Part shown: in pieces, positions 23,753 to 34,180 of the stretch | How the letters are laid out: every line of letters starts with the position of its first letter | Numbering within the stretch: position 1 is the first letter of the stretch | Notes under the pieces: generated by a model | Told to the model about the DNA's origin: nothing | The model's input: only the letters and a program-made list of their open reading frames with translations | The model's database searches: none | Source: Kribbella kalugense | GTDB lineage: Bacteria > Actinomycetota > Actinomycetes > Propionibacteriales > Kribbellaceae | Direction of reading: 5' to 3' | DNA: 64,000 nucleotides | Assembly: GCF_004365875.1 (NCBI RefSeq) | Contig: NZ_SODF01000001.1 | Coordinates: 620,001 to 684,000 of the forward strand | Made by a program: the position numbers and the translations under genes

Positions 23753-24316
23753 ATGGGACGGTGGGAACCGGATGCGGCCGGGCGGCTGCGTGAGGCGGCG
23801 ATGGCGCTCTATGCCGAGCGCGGGTTCGACGGCACGACCGTCGCCGACATCGCCGACGCGGCTGGTGTCACCGCACGTACGTTCTTCCGGCACTTCGCGG
23901 ACAAGCGCGAGGTGCTGTTCGCCGGGTCCGAGCAACTCGAGCAGCACATGGTCCTGGCGCTGGCCGAGGCGCCGACCGAGGCGACTCCGATGGAGGCTGT
24001 CGCTGCGGCTGTCCTGGCCTCGGCCGAGTTCTTCGACGGGATGCGCCGGGACTACTCGCGACGCCGCGCGGCGGTCATCACCGCGACGCCCGAGCTGCGT
24101 GAGCGCGAGCTGATCAAGATGGCTACGTTGACGTCCTCTCTCACCAAGGGTCTGCTGGACCGCGGCGTCGCCCCGGACGTCGCCGCGCTGGCCGCCGAGA
24201 CCGGGGTCGCAGTCTTCCGGGTGGCCTTCGAACGCTGGCTCGTCGAGCCCGACAGCGTCCTGATCGCCGACGTCATCCGCTCGACCCTGAAGACTCTTTC
24301 GGGCCTGACTGCCTGA
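23753..24316 (+). CDS. TetR family transcriptional regulator
   Basis: A 187-residue regulator. The N-terminal helix-turn-helix (RLREAAMALYAERGFDGTTVADIADAAGVTARTFFRHFADKREVLF) is textbook TetR. The ligand domain is helical and ends SVLIADVIRSTLKTLSGL. It lies opposite the SDR gene across twin palindromes. The last 44 bp overlap the end of the convergent LtrA gene. Its ligand is unknown; such TetR/SDR pairs often respond to electrophiles or lipophilic compounds. Confidence 0.93.
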   Translation: MGRWEPDAAGRLREAAMALYAERGFDGTTVADIADAAGVTARTFFRHFADKREVLFAGSEQLEQHMVLALAEAPTEATPMEAVAAAVLASAEFFDGMRRDYSRRRAAVITATPELRERELIKMATLTSSLTKGLLDRGVAPDVAALAAETGVAVFRVAFERWLVEPDSVLIADVIRSTLKTLSGLTA

Positions 24317-25499
24317 CGCTCTCGCTCCACGAGGCGATGCCGACCAAGGCGACGCAGGTGGCGGCGATGAGCGCGAGGTCGGCGACCGATCCGATCTGCG
24401 GTGTCGCGATCGGCAGCACGAGCAGGACCGCGACGCCGGCAATCGCCGTACCCAGATAGGCACGGGACGGCTCCGAGATGATCCTGTGCACGCCCCACAA
24501 GAGGCCGACGAAGCAGGCGGCCGGTATGGCGACGGCGTAGCTCGCGGCGGTGGGGGAGAGGTGCAGCTCGTGGCTGGTCTGCTCGACGACGACCTCCAGG
24601 CCGGCGCCGAGGGCGGCGAGCGACGCGAAGATGCCGAAGTGTCCGTAGCCCCAACGGTACGAGCGGTCTCGCCGGTCCTCGAGCCGCGGGCCGGCGGGAT
24701 GCAGGAAGTACAGCCACCACAACGCGAACAGGATGACCAGGCCGCAGCCGGCGACCGCGATCAGTTCGGCTCCGACCTCGGTGTCCTCGACGGCCCGGCG
24801 TACGCCGTTGGACGCGGCCAGGACCGCCTCGCCCAGCAGGATGATCGTGAACAACCCGTACCGCTCGGCGATGTGGTGCGGATGCCAGTGCGTGGCCCGC
24901 GGCCGCTCGGCCCAGAGCGGTACTGACAACTCGAGGATCGCCAGGATGATGAAGGCGGCGAGCAGCACGCCGTCGGACGCGCCGCTGTCAGCCAGATACA
25001 GCCGGGCGAACCAGCCGACCTGCAAGGCCCCGATGCCGAACGCGTACCGGAACGCCGTACGACGTGAGTCCGGATCCTCGATGCCTGCGCGCAACCAGAG
25101 CGAGATCAGCCCGAGCCGCATGACCAGATAGCCGACCGTGATCATCAGGTAGTCGCCGTGGTCCGCGGCCGGCGGGACGCCGGCGGCGAGCAGCAGCACG
25201 CCGGCCATCTGCACCATGGTCAGGATCCGGTACGTGACGTCGTCGGTGTCGTACGACGAGGCGAACCAGGTGAAGTTCATCCACGCCCACCAGATCGCGA
25301 AGAACACCTGCAGGAACGGCAGCACCCCGTCGCCGGCATGACCGTCGGCGATCGTGTGCGCGAACTGCTCGGTGACCGCGGCGACCGCGATCACGAAGGT
25401 CAGGTCGAACAGCAGCTCCAGCTGGCTGGAGACCCGGTGCGGCTCGTCGATCGGCCGCGCCGTCATCCGGACCCGGATGCGGATGGTCGGGTTAGGCAC
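24273..25499 (-). CDS. low temperature requirement protein A (LtrA) family membrane protein
   Basis: A 408-residue polytopic membrane protein with about 11 hydrophobic segments. The LtrA signature is clear: SSQLELLFDLTFVIAVA near the start, FFAIWWAWMNFTWFASSYDTDD, HHIAERYGLFTIILLGEA and RWGYGHFGIF. The family is widespread, named from a Listeria cold-growth mutant, and its activity is not settled. The GTG at 25499 has GGAG six bases upstream; an ATG at 25466 has none. Convergent 44-bp overlap with the TetR gene. Confidence 0.9.
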   Translation of the reverse strand: MPNPTIRIRVRMTARPIDEPHRVSSQLELLFDLTFVIAVAAVTEQFAHTIADGHAGDGVLPFLQVFFAIWWAWMNFTWFASSYDTDDVTYRILTMVQMAGVLLLAAGVPPAADHGDYLMITVGYLVMRLGLISLWLRAGIEDPDSRRTAFRYAFGIGALQVGWFARLYLADSGASDGVLLAAFIILAILELSVPLWAERPRATHWHPHHIAERYGLFTIILLGEAVLAASNGVRRAVEDTEVGAELIAVAGCGLVILFALWWLYFLHPAGPRLEDRRDRSYRWGYGHFGIFASLAALGAGLEVVVEQTSHELHLSPTAASYAVAIPAACFVGLLWGVHRIISEPSRAYLGTAIAGVAVLLVLPIATPQIGSVADLALIAATCVALVGIASWSESVRQSGPKESSGSSG

Positions 25500-25571: not shown

Positions 25572-25598
25572 TGTCACAAGGCCGAGGGGTGCCCTGTC
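25572..25598 (+). promoter_or_regulatory. predicted ECF41-type promoter
   Basis: TGTCACA (25572-25578), 16 bases, then TGTC (25595-25598). ECF41 factors are known to use TGTCACA with a CGTC -10 at this distance. It stands in front of the SDR-ECF41 cassette, the expected single target of such factors. Confidence 0.6.
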
Positions 25599-25647: not shown

Positions 25648-26403
25648 ATGAAGATCGTCGTGATCGGCGGCACCGGCCTGATCGGCACCAAGTTGGCGGC
25701 GAAGCTCACCGAGCACGGGCACGAGGCGGTGCCGGCCGCGCCGAGCACCGGCGTGAACACCATCACCGGTGAGGGGCTGGACGAGGTCCTGAAGGGCGCC
25801 GACGTGGTCGTCGACGTGGCCAACTCGCCGTCGTTCGAGGCGGGGCCGGTGATGGAGTTCTTCAAGACCTCGACCGGGAACCTGCTGCAGGCCGAGGATG
25901 CGGCCGGGGTCCGGCACCATGTCGGGATCTCGATCGTCGGCACCGAGCGGCTGCCGGACAACGCCTACTTCGCCGCCAAGATCGCCCAGGAGGAGCTGAT
26001 CAAGGGCTCCGGCATCCCGTATTCGCTGGTGCACGCGACCCAGTTCATGGAGTTCGTCGCGGCGATCGCGGACGAGGGCACCTGGGACGACGGCAAGGTG
26101 CACATCGCGCCGGTCGCGTGGGCGCCGATCGCCGCCGAGGACGTCGCCGCGAACCTGGCTAGAGTCGCGACCGGTACGCCGCTGAACGGGCGGATCGACA
26201 TCGCCGGGCCGGACGAGTTCCGGATGGACGAGTTCTTCCGCAAGGCCTTGGCGGAGCGCGGCGACGCCCGCGAGGTCGTCGCCGACGAGCACGCCCGGTA
26301 CTTCGGCTCCGAGCTGACCGAGCGCAGCCTGGTCCCGATCGGCGAGGCCACCCTCGGCGAGCTCCACTACGACGAGTGGTACGCCGGGCAGGCCGGCCGA
26401 TGA
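25648..26403 (+). CDS. NAD(P)H-binding SDR/NmrA-like protein, ECF41-associated
   Basis: A 251-residue atypical SDR: KIVVIGGTGLIGTKLAAKL (residues 2-20), ADVVVDVANSPSFE, GVRHHVGISIVGTERL, YFAAKIAQEEL (a YxxxK-like element) and IPYSLVHATQFMEF. It probably binds NADP and reduces or senses a small molecule. It fits the COE (carboxymuconolactone decarboxylase, oxidoreductase or epimerase) gene that accompanies ECF41 factors, here two genes downstream. GAAGGAG precedes the ATG; an ECF41-like promoter is 50 bp further up. Confidence 0.87.
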   Translation: MKIVVIGGTGLIGTKLAAKLTEHGHEAVPAAPSTGVNTITGEGLDEVLKGADVVVDVANSPSFEAGPVMEFFKTSTGNLLQAEDAAGVRHHVGISIVGTERLPDNAYFAAKIAQEELIKGSGIPYSLVHATQFMEFVAAIADEGTWDDGKVHIAPVAWAPIAAEDVAANLARVATGTPLNGRIDIAGPDEFRMDEFFRKALAERGDAREVVADEHARYFGSELTERSLVPIGEATLGELHYDEWYAGQAGR

Positions 26404-26612
26404 GCAACGAGGAGCAGTTCCTGCGGCAGCTCGAGGTCGAGGTCGACGCTGACATCCAGCTGAACGCGGCAGGCACACCACCCGAGGACGATGCCGACTG
26501 GTTGCTGGATCCGTATGAGGCGCAAGCTGAAACGGCCGATCTGCACAGCCTGAAGGCTGCGATCGAGGTCTTGGAAGGCGAGGATCAGCCGTATCCTCCA
26601 GCGGAGAACTGA
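26400..26612 (+). CDS. small acidic hypothetical protein in the ECF41 cassette
   Basis: A 70-residue acidic protein (EEQFLRQLEVEVDADIQLNAAGTPPEDDADWLLDPYEAQ) of unknown role. Its ATG overlaps the SDR stop (ATGA), so it is translated with it, and the ECF41 gene follows 13 bp later. No membrane segment or zinc site that would mark an anti-sigma factor is present. It could be a short co-regulator; unrecognised. Confidence 0.65.
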   Translation: MSNEEQFLRQLEVEVDADIQLNAAGTPPEDDADWLLDPYEAQAETADLHSLKAAIEVLEGEDQPYPPAEN

Positions 26613-26625
26613 CAGAGGGGTGTCG

Positions 26626-27486
26626 ATGGAGCTCGACGACGCGGTCGTGGTGTTCAACGAGGCGCGGCCGCGGTTGATGGGGATCGCTTACCGGATGCTG
26701 GGCAGTCACAGCGAGGCCGAGGACCTGGTGCAAGAGGTGTGGCTGCGCTGGCAGGCGGCGGACCGCAGTACGGTCCAGAGTCCGGTGGCGTACCTGTCAA
26801 CCGCGGTGACCAGGCTTGCGATCAACGCGAGCCAGTCCGCCCGTGCCCGTCGGGAGACGTACATCGGTCCCTGGCTGCCCGAGCCGGTCGACACCAGCGC
26901 CGATCCTTATCTCGGTGCTGAGCGCGGCGAGGCGTTGAGCTTCGCCGTACTCCTCGTGCTCGAACGGCTCTCACCCACCGAGCGCGCGGCGTACATCCTC
27001 CGCGAGGCCTTCGACTACCAGTACGACGAGCTTGCCGCCGTGCTGCAGTCGACCCAGCCGGCGGTGCGGCAGCTCGTCAGCCGGGCACGCAAGCGGATCC
27101 GGGCAGAACGCCGTACCGAGGTCAGCGGAGGCGAGCAGAAGAAGTTGCTCACGGCATTCGTCGCGGCGGCGCGATCGGGCGATCTTGGTGAGCTGGAGCA
27201 GTTGCTGGCCAAGGAGGCGATCAGCTACTCCGATGGCGGCGGCGTGGCCCGGGCGTCGAAGTTCCCGGTGGTCGGGCGGGAGCGGGTGGCGAAGTACTAC
27301 CGCGCGTTCCACACCCGGTTCTGGCAGGGCGTCGAGGTCGAGCTCGGCACGATGAACGGGCAGTCTGCCGTGATGTGCAAGCGCGACGGCGAGCTGTTCG
27401 CCGTCTGCACCGTGATCGCGTCGCCCGACGGCATCGACGAAGTGCTGTGGATGATGAACCGGTCCAAGCTCACCGCCGTCGCTTGA
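26626..27486 (+). CDS. ECF41-type sigma factor with C-terminal SnoaL-like domain
   Basis: A 286-residue sigma factor. Region 2 includes AYRMLGSHSEAEDLVQEVWLRW, and region 4 includes LSPTERAAYILREAFDYQYDELA. It continues into a SnoaL/NTF2-like domain of about 100 residues with the DGGG motif (SYSDGGGVARASKFPVVGRE) and a terminal NRSKL. In ECF41 proteins this extension replaces an anti-sigma factor and tunes activity. The ATG follows AGAGGGG. An SDR gene and an acidic protein precede it. Confidence 0.9.
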   Translation: MELDDAVVVFNEARPRLMGIAYRMLGSHSEAEDLVQEVWLRWQAADRSTVQSPVAYLSTAVTRLAINASQSARARRETYIGPWLPEPVDTSADPYLGAERGEALSFAVLLVLERLSPTERAAYILREAFDYQYDELAAVLQSTQPAVRQLVSRARKRIRAERRTEVSGGEQKKLLTAFVAAARSGDLGELEQLLAKEAISYSDGGGVARASKFPVVGRERVAKYYRAFHTRFWQGVEVELGTMNGQSAVMCKRDGELFAVCTVIASPDGIDEVLWMMNRSKLTAVA

Positions 27487-27498
27487 GCTGGAGGACCT

Positions 27499-27876
27499 AT
27501 GTTCAAGCGGAGCGATCATGCCGTCGTGCACCGGTTCGCGACAGCATGCCGGGCCGGCAGCCCCGGTGCGATTCGAAGTCTGCTGGCGCCGGAGGTGGTC
27601 GCGGTCAGCGACGGCGGTGGGCGGGTGCTCACCGCGGTGAGCCCGGTCCGTGGGCCGGAGCTGGTCGCGCGGTCCGTGACAGAGCTGATGAGTCCGGACA
27701 TCGCGTTGAGCGTCGAGTCCGTCAACGGCGAGCCTGGTGTCGTACTGCGAAGAGCCGGTGGAGTGGTCGCTGTGGTCAGTCTGAGGGTGGCGGGCGCGAA
27801 GGTCGCCGCCGTCTGGATCATCCTGAACCCCGACAAGCTTGGGCACTGGAATGAACCCCGCCCGGTTCGGTGTTGA
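27499..27876 (+). CDS. stand-alone SnoaL-like domain resembling the ECF41 C terminus
   Basis: A 125-residue protein that aligns by eye with the C-terminal domain of the preceding sigma factor: LLAPEVVAVSDGGGRVLTAVSPVRGPELVAR against the DGGG segment, and a closing WIILNPDKL that matches the NPDKL end typical of ECF41 proteins. There is no sigma region. It lies 12 bp downstream of the ECF41 gene, so it may be a detached duplicate that binds the same ligand or competes for the sigma core (inference). Confidence 0.75.
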   Translation: MFKRSDHAVVHRFATACRAGSPGAIRSLLAPEVVAVSDGGGRVLTAVSPVRGPELVARSVTELMSPDIALSVESVNGEPGVVLRRAGGVVAVVSLRVAGAKVAAVWIILNPDKLGHWNEPRPVRC

Positions 27877-27885
27877 CATGTCAAC
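27872..27885. promoter_or_regulatory. 14-bp perfect palindrome upstream of the LLM oxidoreductase
   Basis: GTTGACATGTCAAC, starting within the stop codon of the previous gene and about 40 bp before the next ATG. TTGACA inside it could be a -35. A MarR- or TetR-sized dimer site; no regulator gene is adjacent. Confidence 0.5.
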
Positions 27886-31494: not shown

Positions 31495-31547
31495 TTCGGC
31501 AACAAATCACTCACAGGTGTAGTCCTGAATAGTTGCGCGTTGAGCCT

Positions 31548-31575
31548 TTGCGTAGTCGTCACTGTGCGCTACGCT
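31548..31575 (+). promoter_or_regulatory. candidate promoter and inverted repeat of the four-gene STAND-like operon
   Basis: TTGCGT (31548-31553) and TACGCT (31570-31575) are 16 bases apart. GCGTAG at 31550 and CTACGC at 31569 form six-base inverted arms overlapping both elements, so a repressor could sit on the promoter. The segment is relatively AT-rich for this genome. Confidence 0.4.
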
Positions 31576-31625
31576 CCAGCAATTGGGTCGCCGGGGAGGG
31601 GTGGCCCAAGGGGGGAGTTGTGGTG

Positions 31626-31973
31626 ATGTCTGATGTAGTGAGTGAGGCTGCGCAGGTTCTGGTGCCGCTACTGGCGGCTGGGGCGAGCACTGCGGTGGAA
31701 GAGGCCTCCAAAGAAGCGGGGAAAGAATTCGCCCACGCTGTCGGGTCGGTCGTCGAGCGCATCGGGAAACGTCTGCGCGGAGCGCCGAAAACGACGGAAC
31801 TGGCTGCCACTTTGCAGGCCTGTGTCGACGACGACACGATCAAACTGGCTGACCTCAAGGAAATCGTGCGTTTGTCCAGGGCGCGTGTCGGTGATACCCA
31901 CGTGAAAGTCACCGGTGACAACGCCAAGGTCCTGACCGACCCGATCTTCAACGACCCGGTCACGTTCAACTAG
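31626..31973 (+). CDS. small helical protein with C-terminal beta motif, STAND-locus partner
   Basis: A 115-residue protein of no named family. Residues 1-55 form Ala/Glu/Lys amphipathic helices (AAGASTAVEEASKEAGKEF), and residues 56-85 a helical hairpin. The end (residues 90-115, KVTGDNAKVLTDPIFNDPVTFN region) is a polar beta strand motif. Short helical effectors ending in such motifs occur beside STAND sensors in multicellular bacteria. The last twelve residues share P-x-F-x3-V-x-F with residues 89-99 of the next protein. GGGGGAG precedes the ATG by eight bases; GTG codons at 31620 and 31623 are alternatives. First of four genes. Confidence 0.7.
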   Translation: MSDVVSEAAQVLVPLLAAGASTAVEEASKEAGKEFAHAVGSVVERIGKRLRGAPKTTELAATLQACVDDDTIKLADLKEIVRLSRARVGDTHVKVTGDNAKVLTDPIFNDPVTFN

Positions 31974-31987
31974 CCGGCTCGAAGGTC

Positions 31988-34180
31988 ATGGCGGAGGAAC
32001 GGGAGGCCTCCGCGGGTGACGAGCGCCAGAACGGCGATCAACAGCCCGCAGAGGCAGCAAAACAAGGGGAAACAGGCACGTCCAAGCCGGCCGGGGAAGC
32101 TGGCGACGAGGCCGAGAAGTCGACTCCACAGGAGTCGTCAAAGGTGCCGAAGGAGAAGGAAGCGCCGGAGAAGGTCCGATCGGACCTGGACGAGGATGCG
32201 ACTACTCCGACGCAGTCCGTCGACGCCGATGTCCGCGCCAAAAACGCGTTGATCAACCCGAACTTCTATGGCGCGGTGTTTTTCCAGACGAGTTCCGGAA
32301 GGCGACGGCACTCGAGCAACCAGACTGGGCTTGCCGCCGACCTGGCGGAAAGGCATGTCGAATCTGGGACGTTGACCGCACTGGGTGAAGCATTGTCCGC
32401 CGGCGGCGCGATTGTCGCGGTGTGTGGCACCTCTGGTATGGGAAAGAGATCTGCCTGCCTGGTCGCCCTCCACCGCGCCGGAATGACGCCGATATTCCGG
32501 CTGCCGGGCGATCTCGGGTTCGAAGATGTGGCTGGTTCAATCGAACAGCTGAAAACAAAGCATGAAAACGCTTGCTTCCTGATGGCGAATGCTCCGGTGT
32601 CGTTCGTGGAGACACTGAACGATTTCGAACTCGAGATGCTGAAAGAGAAGCTGGGCGAGTCGGGGCACTCCCGGTTGCTGATCACGACGCACGGAACGCC
32701 GTCGAAGACCGATCGGACCATGGTCGTCGTCCAGGCAACGGAGGTGCCGAGGTTCGCACTCGTCACGGCGTACTTCGAGCGGCACCCGGCCGACGACGAG
32801 ACCGTACGGCGGATCAGGCGGGTCACCGGCGCGCAGTCCGGGACGGTCTCGTTCGCCGTACTGGACACCATGGTCGCCAGGCTCCGCGCGGAACCGGACG
32901 CGTCCGACGACGATCTCCTGCGGGCGTTGCCGGGGGTGGTCACGACGGACGCGCTCGACACCTGGTTCGAGACCGAGCGATCGGCGCGCGACGTCGCCGC
33001 ACTTGCCTGTGTGGTGACCTGCGAGGGCGCGCCGCGGTCGGATCTGGAAGAGCAGATCGACATCCTCGAGGCCAAGCTGCTCGGGGACGACGCGAAGCCG
33101 GGCTTTCGGAGGACGTCCGCCGCTGCTCTGGCCGAGGGCCTGGTCACGACGACGACCCGGCCGGTGGAGTCCCGGTACGGCGGGGTCCACGACGAGTCCG
33201 TTTACGTGCTCGAGGAACGTCTTGACCGGCATCAGGCGCTGGAATATCTCTGGGAGCATGAGGGCGCCGGATTCCGCACAGGAGTCCTGAGTTGGCTCAC
33301 GAAGCTGGCCGGCCGTCCGTCGGAGTTGTGGGCGGGCGCGGTCTGGGCCGCCGGGGTGCTGCTGACGATCGACCCGCGCTACGTGGAGTCGAATCTGATC
33401 CGTCCGTGGGCGCTGGGTCGCTACTGGCCATCGGTCGCGGCCGCGCAGGCTCTTGGAGTTCCGACGATTCTGAACATTCCCAGCGACATCGGCCAGCGTC
33501 TGGCCGATGCCTGGATCGCCGGCAGCAGTTTCGACCTCCGGTTCTGCGCGATTGTCGCGTACGGCGGTCTGCTCGGCGCGTGGGACGTCGAGTCCGAGGC
33601 GCCGGTCCGGCTCTGGCTCGAGACGTTCGCGGAGGACGATCTGGCGCCCGTCGCCGCAAGACGGCTCGGGATGCTCTGTGCTGCCGGCGACGACGCTCGG
33701 CTGGTCCGGTTGACGGTGCTGAACCTGCTGCTCGAGATCTCGTCCGGTCAATGGGCGGGGACCAGGCCGGAGATGCGGCAGGCGATGTGGGTCTTCGGGT
33801 ATGCCGTCGACTCGCTGGCCGACGAGGACGAGGCATCGTCGGATTCGCTCCGGTCACTGCTGGGCGGCGAGGAAGCAGAGGCGAGGGACGCCTTCGTCGA
33901 GCTGCTGGCGAGGACCTGGTCGGCGCCATACGCACGGTGGGCCACGGAGAAGACCGTCACTGCCTTGGTCCATGCGGTGGAGGGCGAGGTGATCGAGCGG
34001 CGGGTTCTGGCCGAGCTGATCCGGTGCGCGAAGGACGCCGCCAGGAAGCTCGGCACTCTCGCCGAACTGGGCGGAGCACTATGTCGTGCGCTGGCCCTGG
34101 AACGCCGCAAGAACCCAGACGGCGTGGTCGCACGCCGGCTGCTGGATCAGTTTTTTCCGACTCGTGAGGTGACCAGATGA
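31988..34180 (+). CDS. STAND-like P-loop protein with degenerate NTPase motifs
   Basis: A 730-residue protein. Residues 1-82 are a charged, probably disordered linker rich in Glu/Lys/Gln. A short beta motif follows at 89-99 (INPNFYGAVFF), then a P-loop-like segment at 146-155 (CGTSGMGKRS). Arg replaces the Ser/Thr after the Walker A Lys. The likely Walker B strand (ACFLMANAP, about 195-203) lacks the acidic residue, and the sensor-like RLLITTHGTP has His where STAND proteins have Arg. Residues 300-720 are helical, perhaps HEAT/TPR-like. The layout fits a STAND sensor whose NTPase has decayed or is unusual. Overlaps the next gene (ATGA). Confidence 0.65.
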   Translation: MAEEREASAGDERQNGDQQPAEAAKQGETGTSKPAGEAGDEAEKSTPQESSKVPKEKEAPEKVRSDLDEDATTPTQSVDADVRAKNALINPNFYGAVFFQTSSGRRRHSSNQTGLAADLAERHVESGTLTALGEALSAGGAIVAVCGTSGMGKRSACLVALHRAGMTPIFRLPGDLGFEDVAGSIEQLKTKHENACFLMANAPVSFVETLNDFELEMLKEKLGESGHSRLLITTHGTPSKTDRTMVVVQATEVPRFALVTAYFERHPADDETVRRIRRVTGAQSGTVSFAVLDTMVARLRAEPDASDDDLLRALPGVVTTDALDTWFETERSARDVAALACVVTCEGAPRSDLEEQIDILEAKLLGDDAKPGFRRTSAAALAEGLVTTTTRPVESRYGGVHDESVYVLEERLDRHQALEYLWEHEGAGFRTGVLSWLTKLAGRPSELWAGAVWAAGVLLTIDPRYVESNLIRPWALGRYWPSVAAAQALGVPTILNIPSDIGQRLADAWIAGSSFDLRFCAIVAYGGLLGAWDVESEAPVRLWLETFAEDDLAPVAARRLGMLCAAGDDARLVRLTVLNLLLEISSGQWAGTRPEMRQAMWVFGYAVDSLADEDEASSDSLRSLLGGEEAEARDAFVELLARTWSAPYARWATEKTVTALVHAVEGEVIERRVLAELIRCAKDAARKLGTLAELGGALCRALALERRKNPDGVVARRLLDQFFPTREVTR

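Follow-up and report, generated by a model that had tools for sequence, protein, structure and literature searches.

The DNA analysed here is a stretch of 64,000 nucleotides from the forward strand of Kribbella kalugense (contig NZ_SODF01000001.1, positions 620,001 to 684,000; genome size 8.3 Mb), which we refer to as the window and in which positions are counted from the first base. A cassette of four genes lies on its plus strand, encoding in order a short-chain dehydrogenase/reductase (SDR), an acidic protein of 70 residues, an ECF41 sigma factor and a free protein of 125 residues. ECF41 is a widespread group that is described as having no obvious anti-sigma factors and as being controlled by a fused C-terminal domain; B. 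subtilis is reported to have no member of it (PMC3426412). The initial annotation, made from the sequence alone, had proposed the same gene order together with a role for the free protein in trans, and we found all four open reading frames where it had placed them. The features of the cassette are as follows (all on the plus strand):

25572..25598, plus strand: ECF41-type promoter, TGTCACA-N16-TGTC; pattern match, 76 bases 5' of the SDR start
25648..26403, plus strand: NmrA-like SDR of the NAD(P)H-binding type; corresponds to the 'COE' gene that accompanies ECF41 factors and is probably a target gene; Pfam NAD_binding_10 1.3e-7, NmrA 2.9e-7; syntenic in relatives
26400..26612, plus strand: acidic protein of 70 residues; ATGA overlap with the SDR stop
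26626..27486, plus strand: ECF41 sigma factor (the partner); alternative GTG start at 26620
26872..26886, plus strand: WLPEP in the sigma2-sigma4 linker of the partner, by sequence; published docking site for NPDKL (PMC3426412, PMC7730460)
27232..27246, plus strand: DGGGV in the partner's own extension, with a hydrophobic fifth residue; by sequence
27457..27471, plus strand: NRSKL at the end of the partner's extension, replacing NPDKL; by sequence
27499..27876, plus strand: free ECF41-type regulatory domain of 125 residues (D-protein), assigned as what is left of a second ECF41 sigma factor on the basis of profile matches, genus distribution and trees
27610..27624, plus strand: DGGGR of the free domain; by sequence
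27826..27840, plus strand: NPDKL of the free domain; by sequence

The ECF41 sigma factor and the free domain

The partner displays the architecture of an ECF41 factor: sigma2 and sigma4 regions (Pfam Sigma70_r2, 9e-14; Sigma70_r4_2, 2e-11), the WLPEP linker and a C-terminal extension, together with a COE neighbour (the SDR) that is preceded by an ECF41-type promoter. The exception is the end of the extension, where NPDKL is replaced by NRSKL; we still class the protein as ECF41, since it passes the curated model TIGR02957 (327.7 bits against a cut-off of 323.25 in NCBIfam). In case of the free protein, the sigma core score is zero and neither sigma2 nor sigma4 was detected, and hence this bare domain is not itself a sigma factor. 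Its NCBIfam matches fall exclusively on the C-terminal parts of sigma factor models (NF007214, SigJ, positions 172-290, 3e-24; TIGR02957, SigX4, positions 166-280, 2.8e-22; NF007213, 9.7e-6). A profile of 22 free proteins searched against the PDB retrieved SigJ at 3e-12, with a steroid isomerase as runner-up at 0.004: the free protein is therefore not closer to unrelated NTF2 proteins than to ECF41 extensions, the outcome that the initial annotation had named as speaking against it. The match to Pfam SnoaL_2 (PF12680) reaches 20.6 bits and remains below the gathering cut-off of 27, although a model of the sigma-domain fusion matches NTF2-fold structures, so that the protein appears SnoaL-like in fold while falling under the family cut-off. 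From these comparisons we assign the free protein as an ECF41-type C-terminal regulatory domain. The likeness to the factor's own domain that was proposed at the outset thus stands as to domain type, including DGGGR and NPDKL, but not as to close resemblance: the factor itself ends in NRSKL and the two domains share only ~30% identity.

The gene for the free domain is conserved and not a chance open reading frame. A homologue is encoded in 23 of 38 Kribbella genomes at E<=1e-20, and two weaker matches (G010 and G024) bring this to 25/38. An ECF41 factor is located at most 1 kb upstream in 22 of these 25 copies, the partners in the 21 other genomes being 65-91% identical to the sigma factor of the window, and the gene order recurs in relatives, a check suggested by the initial annotation. 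Two of the remaining genomes (G008 and G014) carry a relative of the sigma factor elsewhere. The sigma stop and the start of the free domain are separated by 12 bases in the window, and GGAGG is found between them here and in five relatives (six loci inspected). The alignment used for the PDB search and for later genome profile searches (A1, 22 copies, one from another family) omits the divergent Kribbella copies G010, G024, G035 and G036; among its invariant columns are three of the DGGG residues, all five of NPDKL and, three residues further on, a tryptophan. The median ratio of non-synonymous to synonymous substitution rates (dN/dS) is 0.30 over 45 pairs from ten Kribbella copies. These observations bear on the view of the free protein as a functionless remnant on its way to being lost, which could draw on the existence of a decay series (see below) and on the absence of the domain from 13/38 genus genomes: a dN/dS of about 0.30, motif columns that are invariant over the 22 copies (the four divergent ones omitted) and a ribosome site kept in all six loci inspected make it extremely improbable.

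Descent from a second ECF41 factor

The description of the free protein as a duplicate of its neighbour's domain did not survive phylogenetic analysis. In a tree of 67 domains chosen from 125, free domains group with six intact ECF41 factors, two of which are encoded in the genome of the window (L002 and L003; support 100/99), while the partner extensions group with six extensions of unpartnered factors (support 98/95). Placing the Kribbella free domains with the partner extensions was rejected in the approximately unbiased (AU) test (p 0.0009); a single clade of all free domains was not rejected (p 0.33). Given this rejection and the separate groups, an origin of the free protein as a copy of the neighbouring extension is ruled out, and on the tree evidence the free domain comes from a different ECF41 lineage than its neighbour.

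Many relatives of the free protein retain traces of a sigma core. Among 284 distinct domain records, the core scores at least 90 bits in 200, is faint in 55 and is absent in 29; a few of the 84 faint or coreless records are fragments, and 80 pass the domain cut. Several second proteins from Streptomyces display a faint but nearly complete core (50-69 bits, positions 10-164 of 166 in the seven checked). A sigma2-like segment and linker, lacking sigma4, precede the domain in frame in many genomes of the Nonomuraea family, in Actinopolymorpha and in three Kribbella (G014, G035, G036). In an aligned set of sigma2-bearing relatives the sigma2 model matches 26/26 (3.9e-10 to 3.8e-5, against 0.8 for the best of 200 shuffles), while a clear sigma4 match was obtained for only one of the 26, a Streptomyces protein; Pfam Sigma70_r2 was matched by three of four remnants tested, at or under the Pfam cut-off (3.4e-5 to 7.5e-4). 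In the AlphaFold model of one such protein (L121) the sigma2-like helices are predicted with a local confidence (pLDDT) of 83-94 over residues 11-70, with a predicted TM-score (pTM) of 0.64 for the whole chain, and its top Foldseek matches are SigJ and SigG1, with low TM-scores. The relatives hence form a graded series, from a degenerate whole sigma factor (Streptomyces) via a sigma2 remnant with linker and domain to the bare domain of the window. The core was probably lost stepwise, with sigma4 disappearing before sigma2.

Two further arrangements were considered. Joining of sigma factor and domain by stop-codon read-through was rejected: the frame is common to the window and loci L091-L094 and is not shared by L095 and L096. 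No sigma factor fused to two such domains was found among 402 open frames, where two apparent double-domain matches proved to be one deleted sigma remnant present in two loci.

Partnership across the actinobacteria

In order to describe the distribution outside the genus, named genomes were scanned by DNA pattern and the best 80 of 510 loci were taken, Kribbella included. Of 77 classifiable loci, 14 encode ordinary fused ECF41 factors and 63 are of the free or decayed type, with a partner-clade sigma factor in the same locus (~5 kb) in 50/63; the three unclassified loci (L127, L161, L168) have intact cores of their own (142-152 bits). As the scan patterns contained NPDK or DGGG, motif counts from this set are biased, and the search was therefore repeated with a profile in 120 genomes from the family of a Nonomuraea genome; for motif counts we rely on the Kribbella and the profile-found samples. 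The profile detected a free or decayed protein in 20 genomes, with a partner-clade sigma factor within ~5 kb in 16/20 and LPEP in 16/16 of these partners. Thirteen of the 20 had already been found by pattern; the seven new ones show the neighbour in 7/7 and NPDKL in 6/7. Eight named genomes were searched in full, of which seven belong to the 13 loci lacking a neighbour, and each of the eight contains a partner-clade sigma factor. Overall, proteins of the free or decayed type are rare, and they cluster in particular groups. In a class-wide ECF41 sample (~80 best-scoring regions, 83 intact factors) none was present in the stretches first taken around the 83 factors, and a later profile search located such proteins beyond these stretches, 3.2 kb and 7.2 kb from two of the factors. 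At least 3 of 296 genomes in a phylum sample encode one; with 15 candidates scored per genome here and 37 in the Nonomuraea-family set, these counts are lower bounds. Among viral contigs, 132 pattern stretches included no relative.

This distribution bears on a possible metabolic role for the free protein, which as an enzyme or ligand carrier of the NTF2 fold would act with the SDR on a metabolite and make no contact with the sigma factor. Such a function is suggested by a fold common to SnoaL-like, ketosteroid isomerase and epoxide hydrolase proteins, by the SDR in the same cassette and by one genome (G002) that retains the domain without a sigma factor. We regard it as distinctly unlikely, however, as the domain descends from a sigma factor, its conservation extends to the ECF41 signature motifs, to NPDKL and to the following tryptophan (22 copies, the four divergent Kribbella ones omitted), and a partner-clade sigma factor is nearby in 16/20 profile-found loci.

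NPDKL is of particular interest for the function of the domain, because in fused ECF41 factors it connects the extension with the linker motif, and the resulting compact conformation is inactive (PMC7730460). It is kept in 21/25 Kribbella free domains and in 19/20 profile-found proteins; across 80 free or decayed proteins, WLPEP is found upstream in none, while the D of NPDKL is kept in 75. Retention of NPDKL despite the loss of its target in cis points to a target in trans, and the WLPEP linker motif is present in 59/62 partnered sigma factors. A ligand sponge would correspond to the competition for ligand raised in the initial annotation: the free domain would buffer the inducer that the sigma extension also binds, with no contact between domain and sigma factor. 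Such a sponge would agree with a domain of the same family adjoining the sigma factor, but leaves unexplained why a protein-docking motif mostly stays once its cis target is gone; we know of no ligand, and consider this option improbable.

The partners themselves show the reverse pattern. The third residue of NPxKL is D or E in 9/57 partners (5 of 62 have no letters at this place) compared to 70/83 unpartnered factors of the class-wide sample, in which 13/83 carry another residue. In raw counts, loss of NPDKL in partners is associated with partnership in Kribbella (Fisher p 1e-4) and overall (2e-16); in the profile-found set, two partner motifs (SRSRV and ARRRL) are probably errors of the regular expression. 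As a correlated change independent of descent, the loss was nevertheless set aside, the tree-aware test having no power despite the strong raw counts.

Several genes and sites around the cassette complete the picture of the locus. The 70-residue acidic protein (26400-26612) has no Pfam or NCBIfam family at E<=0.1 (best Pfam 0.79); homologues with 34-91% identity are located near the SDR in many Kribbella and in a few other actinobacteria. On the 5' side of the cassette lie an LtrA-family gene (24273-25499, minus strand) and a TetR-family gene (23753-24316, plus strand) whose 3' ends overlap, and one or both of these families adjoin the cassette in many Kribbella. The free domain is followed by a luciferase-like monooxygenase (TIGR03858, 496.9 bits) and then by an F420-type oxidoreductase. 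A perfect 14-base palindrome, GTTGACATGTCAAC, spans the stop codon of the free domain at 27872-27885, 5' of the monooxygenase gene, and is absent from 17 related loci checked, some of which represent the same genome twice. Further downstream, a protein of 730 residues (31988-34180) and the small open reading frame before it (31533-31973) have no Pfam match under 0.05; a GTSGMGKRS stretch in this region resembles a nucleotide-binding loop by eye.

A possible regulator in trans

The site upstream of the SDR differs in a single base from the published ECF41 promoter consensus (TGTCACA-n16-CGTC; PMC3426412). A similar site precedes the SDR in 47/69 regions, or 35/55 once identical regions are removed, where the reversed pattern is found in 0/55. 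Genome-wide, the strict pattern has 7 matches against 2 for the reversed control, and by their coordinates five of the seven fall either at this SDR or next to one of three further ECF41 genes. Given this promoter, the gap of 12 bases and the ribosome site, sigma factor and free domain are probably made together in the window.

The reading that we prefer, and to which we would give about an even chance, takes the free domain as a trans-acting regulator of the neighbouring sigma factor, inhibitory and with feedback; the idea of a trans regulator in the initial annotation is thereby retained as the best interpretation. The NPDKL/DGGG face of the free domain would dock onto the WLPEP linker of the partner, whose own extension, altered to NRSKL, may bind this site poorly, and the docked domain would damp the partner unless a small ligand is bound, both the sign of the effect and the ligand being conjectural. 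As one ECF41-type promoter 5' of the SDR would drive both sigma factor and free domain, the outcome would be a negative feedback loop. We favour an inhibitor on account of published results: besides NPDKL docking, trimming the end of the extension raised the activity of ECF41 factors ~20- and 120-fold whereas its full removal abolished activity (PMC3426412), and a further sigma factor that carries a SnoaL_2 domain without NPDKL is antagonised by a separate protein encoded next to it, RsfG (PMC7730460).

The same truncation results can be turned towards a positive partner. If the sigma factor's own extension has decayed, the free domain may supply the needed part in trans, giving a two-subunit sigma factor, for which SigO-RsoA is a precedent. 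That the extension is needed follows from the loss of activity upon its full removal (PMC3426412), and NPxKL and DGGGx are mostly altered in partners and mostly intact in free domains. However, the partner retains a complete extension, sigma factors of the same clade exist without a free domain, and loss of the distal part raised activity in the published truncations (PMC3426412); we thus judge this alternative, the strongest of the competing ones, to be unlikely.

A number of observations weigh against the free domain being a trans-acting inhibitor under feedback. The pair is convergent in many Streptomyces loci, and hence co-transcription is not general. NPDKL is lost in the four divergent Kribbella free domains (NPKKL, NPSKL, NPAKL and NPAKL), while six Herbidospora partners retain it. 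An acidic third residue (D or E) in NPxKL is also missing in 8/17 unpartnered Kribbella factors, which indicates that the change is partly clade-wide, and the tree-aware test of this change, with only 3 pairs on supported branches, showed nothing. Nor are the two proteins always found together: G022 has SDR and sigma factor without the free domain, and a relative of the sigma factor is present in 11/13 Kribbella genomes that lack it. Conversely, in G002 the free domain is open and 74% identical, only a deleted remnant of the adjacent sigma gene is left, and a partner-clade sigma factor was not detected at E<=1e-70 among the 64/87 candidates scored. The G002 locus (L082, 4786-5333), with its internally deleted sigma gene and open free domain, shows the domain occurring naturally in the absence of its neighbour.

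Structure prediction does not support docking either. The alignment folded was A3 (with core-only rows for other sigma factors), as in A2 and A4 the free-domain rows had become aligned, in full or in part, to the extension belonging to the sigma factor. In the AlphaFold model of sigma factor and domain as a read-through chain the domains are singly mostly well predicted, but the WLPEP linker has a pLDDT below 50 and the chain a pTM of only 0.50, from which docking gains no support. Foldseek matches to SigJ reach TM-scores of 0.26 and 0.36-0.37 when normalised by query length: such low values back the parts and not their arrangement.

Comparison with known systems reveals that the parts are familiar. 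Fused ECF41 factors (Ecf41Bli, Ecf41Rsp and SigJ; PMC3426412) share with the cassette the domain, the DGGG and NPDKL motifs, the COE neighbour and the promoter motif, but their domain is fused and acts in cis, with no obvious anti-sigma factor in the account given there, whereas here a related domain forms a protein of its own next to a complete ECF41 factor. Compared by description only, RsfG of the ECF56 SigG1-RsfG pair from Streptomyces tsukubaensis differs in having no conserved Pfam domain and in not being described as sigma-derived in the excerpted text (PMC7730460). Reuse of a sigma-like domain as a regulator is also seen in PhyR-NepR-EcfG mimicry. There, PhyR mimics a sigma factor to sequester the anti-sigma factor, while here it is the regulatory extension that is retained, with the sigma factor itself as the presumed target. 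Split sigma factors such as SigO-RsoA likewise divide sigma functions between two proteins, but our partner retains sigma2, linker, sigma4 and extension. Searches of the openly licensed literature retrieved no title or abstract that describes a free ECF41 domain or a sigma-derived ECF41 regulator, and the excerpts of PMC11256431, PMC8999054 and PMC8103513 contain nothing on free domains. Within that literature, what appears new is a sigma-derived free regulatory domain adjoining a complete ECF41 factor.

Taken as a class, these proteins may represent anti-sigma factors made from sigma factors, a broader proposal that we put forward tentatively and hold a little short of even. The promoter-reading core of a former ECF41 sigma factor would have decayed in steps, leaving the regulatory domain next to an intact ECF41 factor that belongs to a different family branch, and this paralogue would have become the dedicated trans regulator of a factor whose own cis control is weakened; the intermediates (degenerate whole sigma factor, sigma2 remnant with domain, bare domain) would still stand beside their target in different actinobacteria. 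If the free domain acts in trans, part of the ECF41 group gains a second regulatory protein. It would also offer a regulatory domain naturally split from the sigma core, which would be useful for finding the ligand, and an example of a regulator arising from a decaying paralogue, the intermediates of which make the steps testable.

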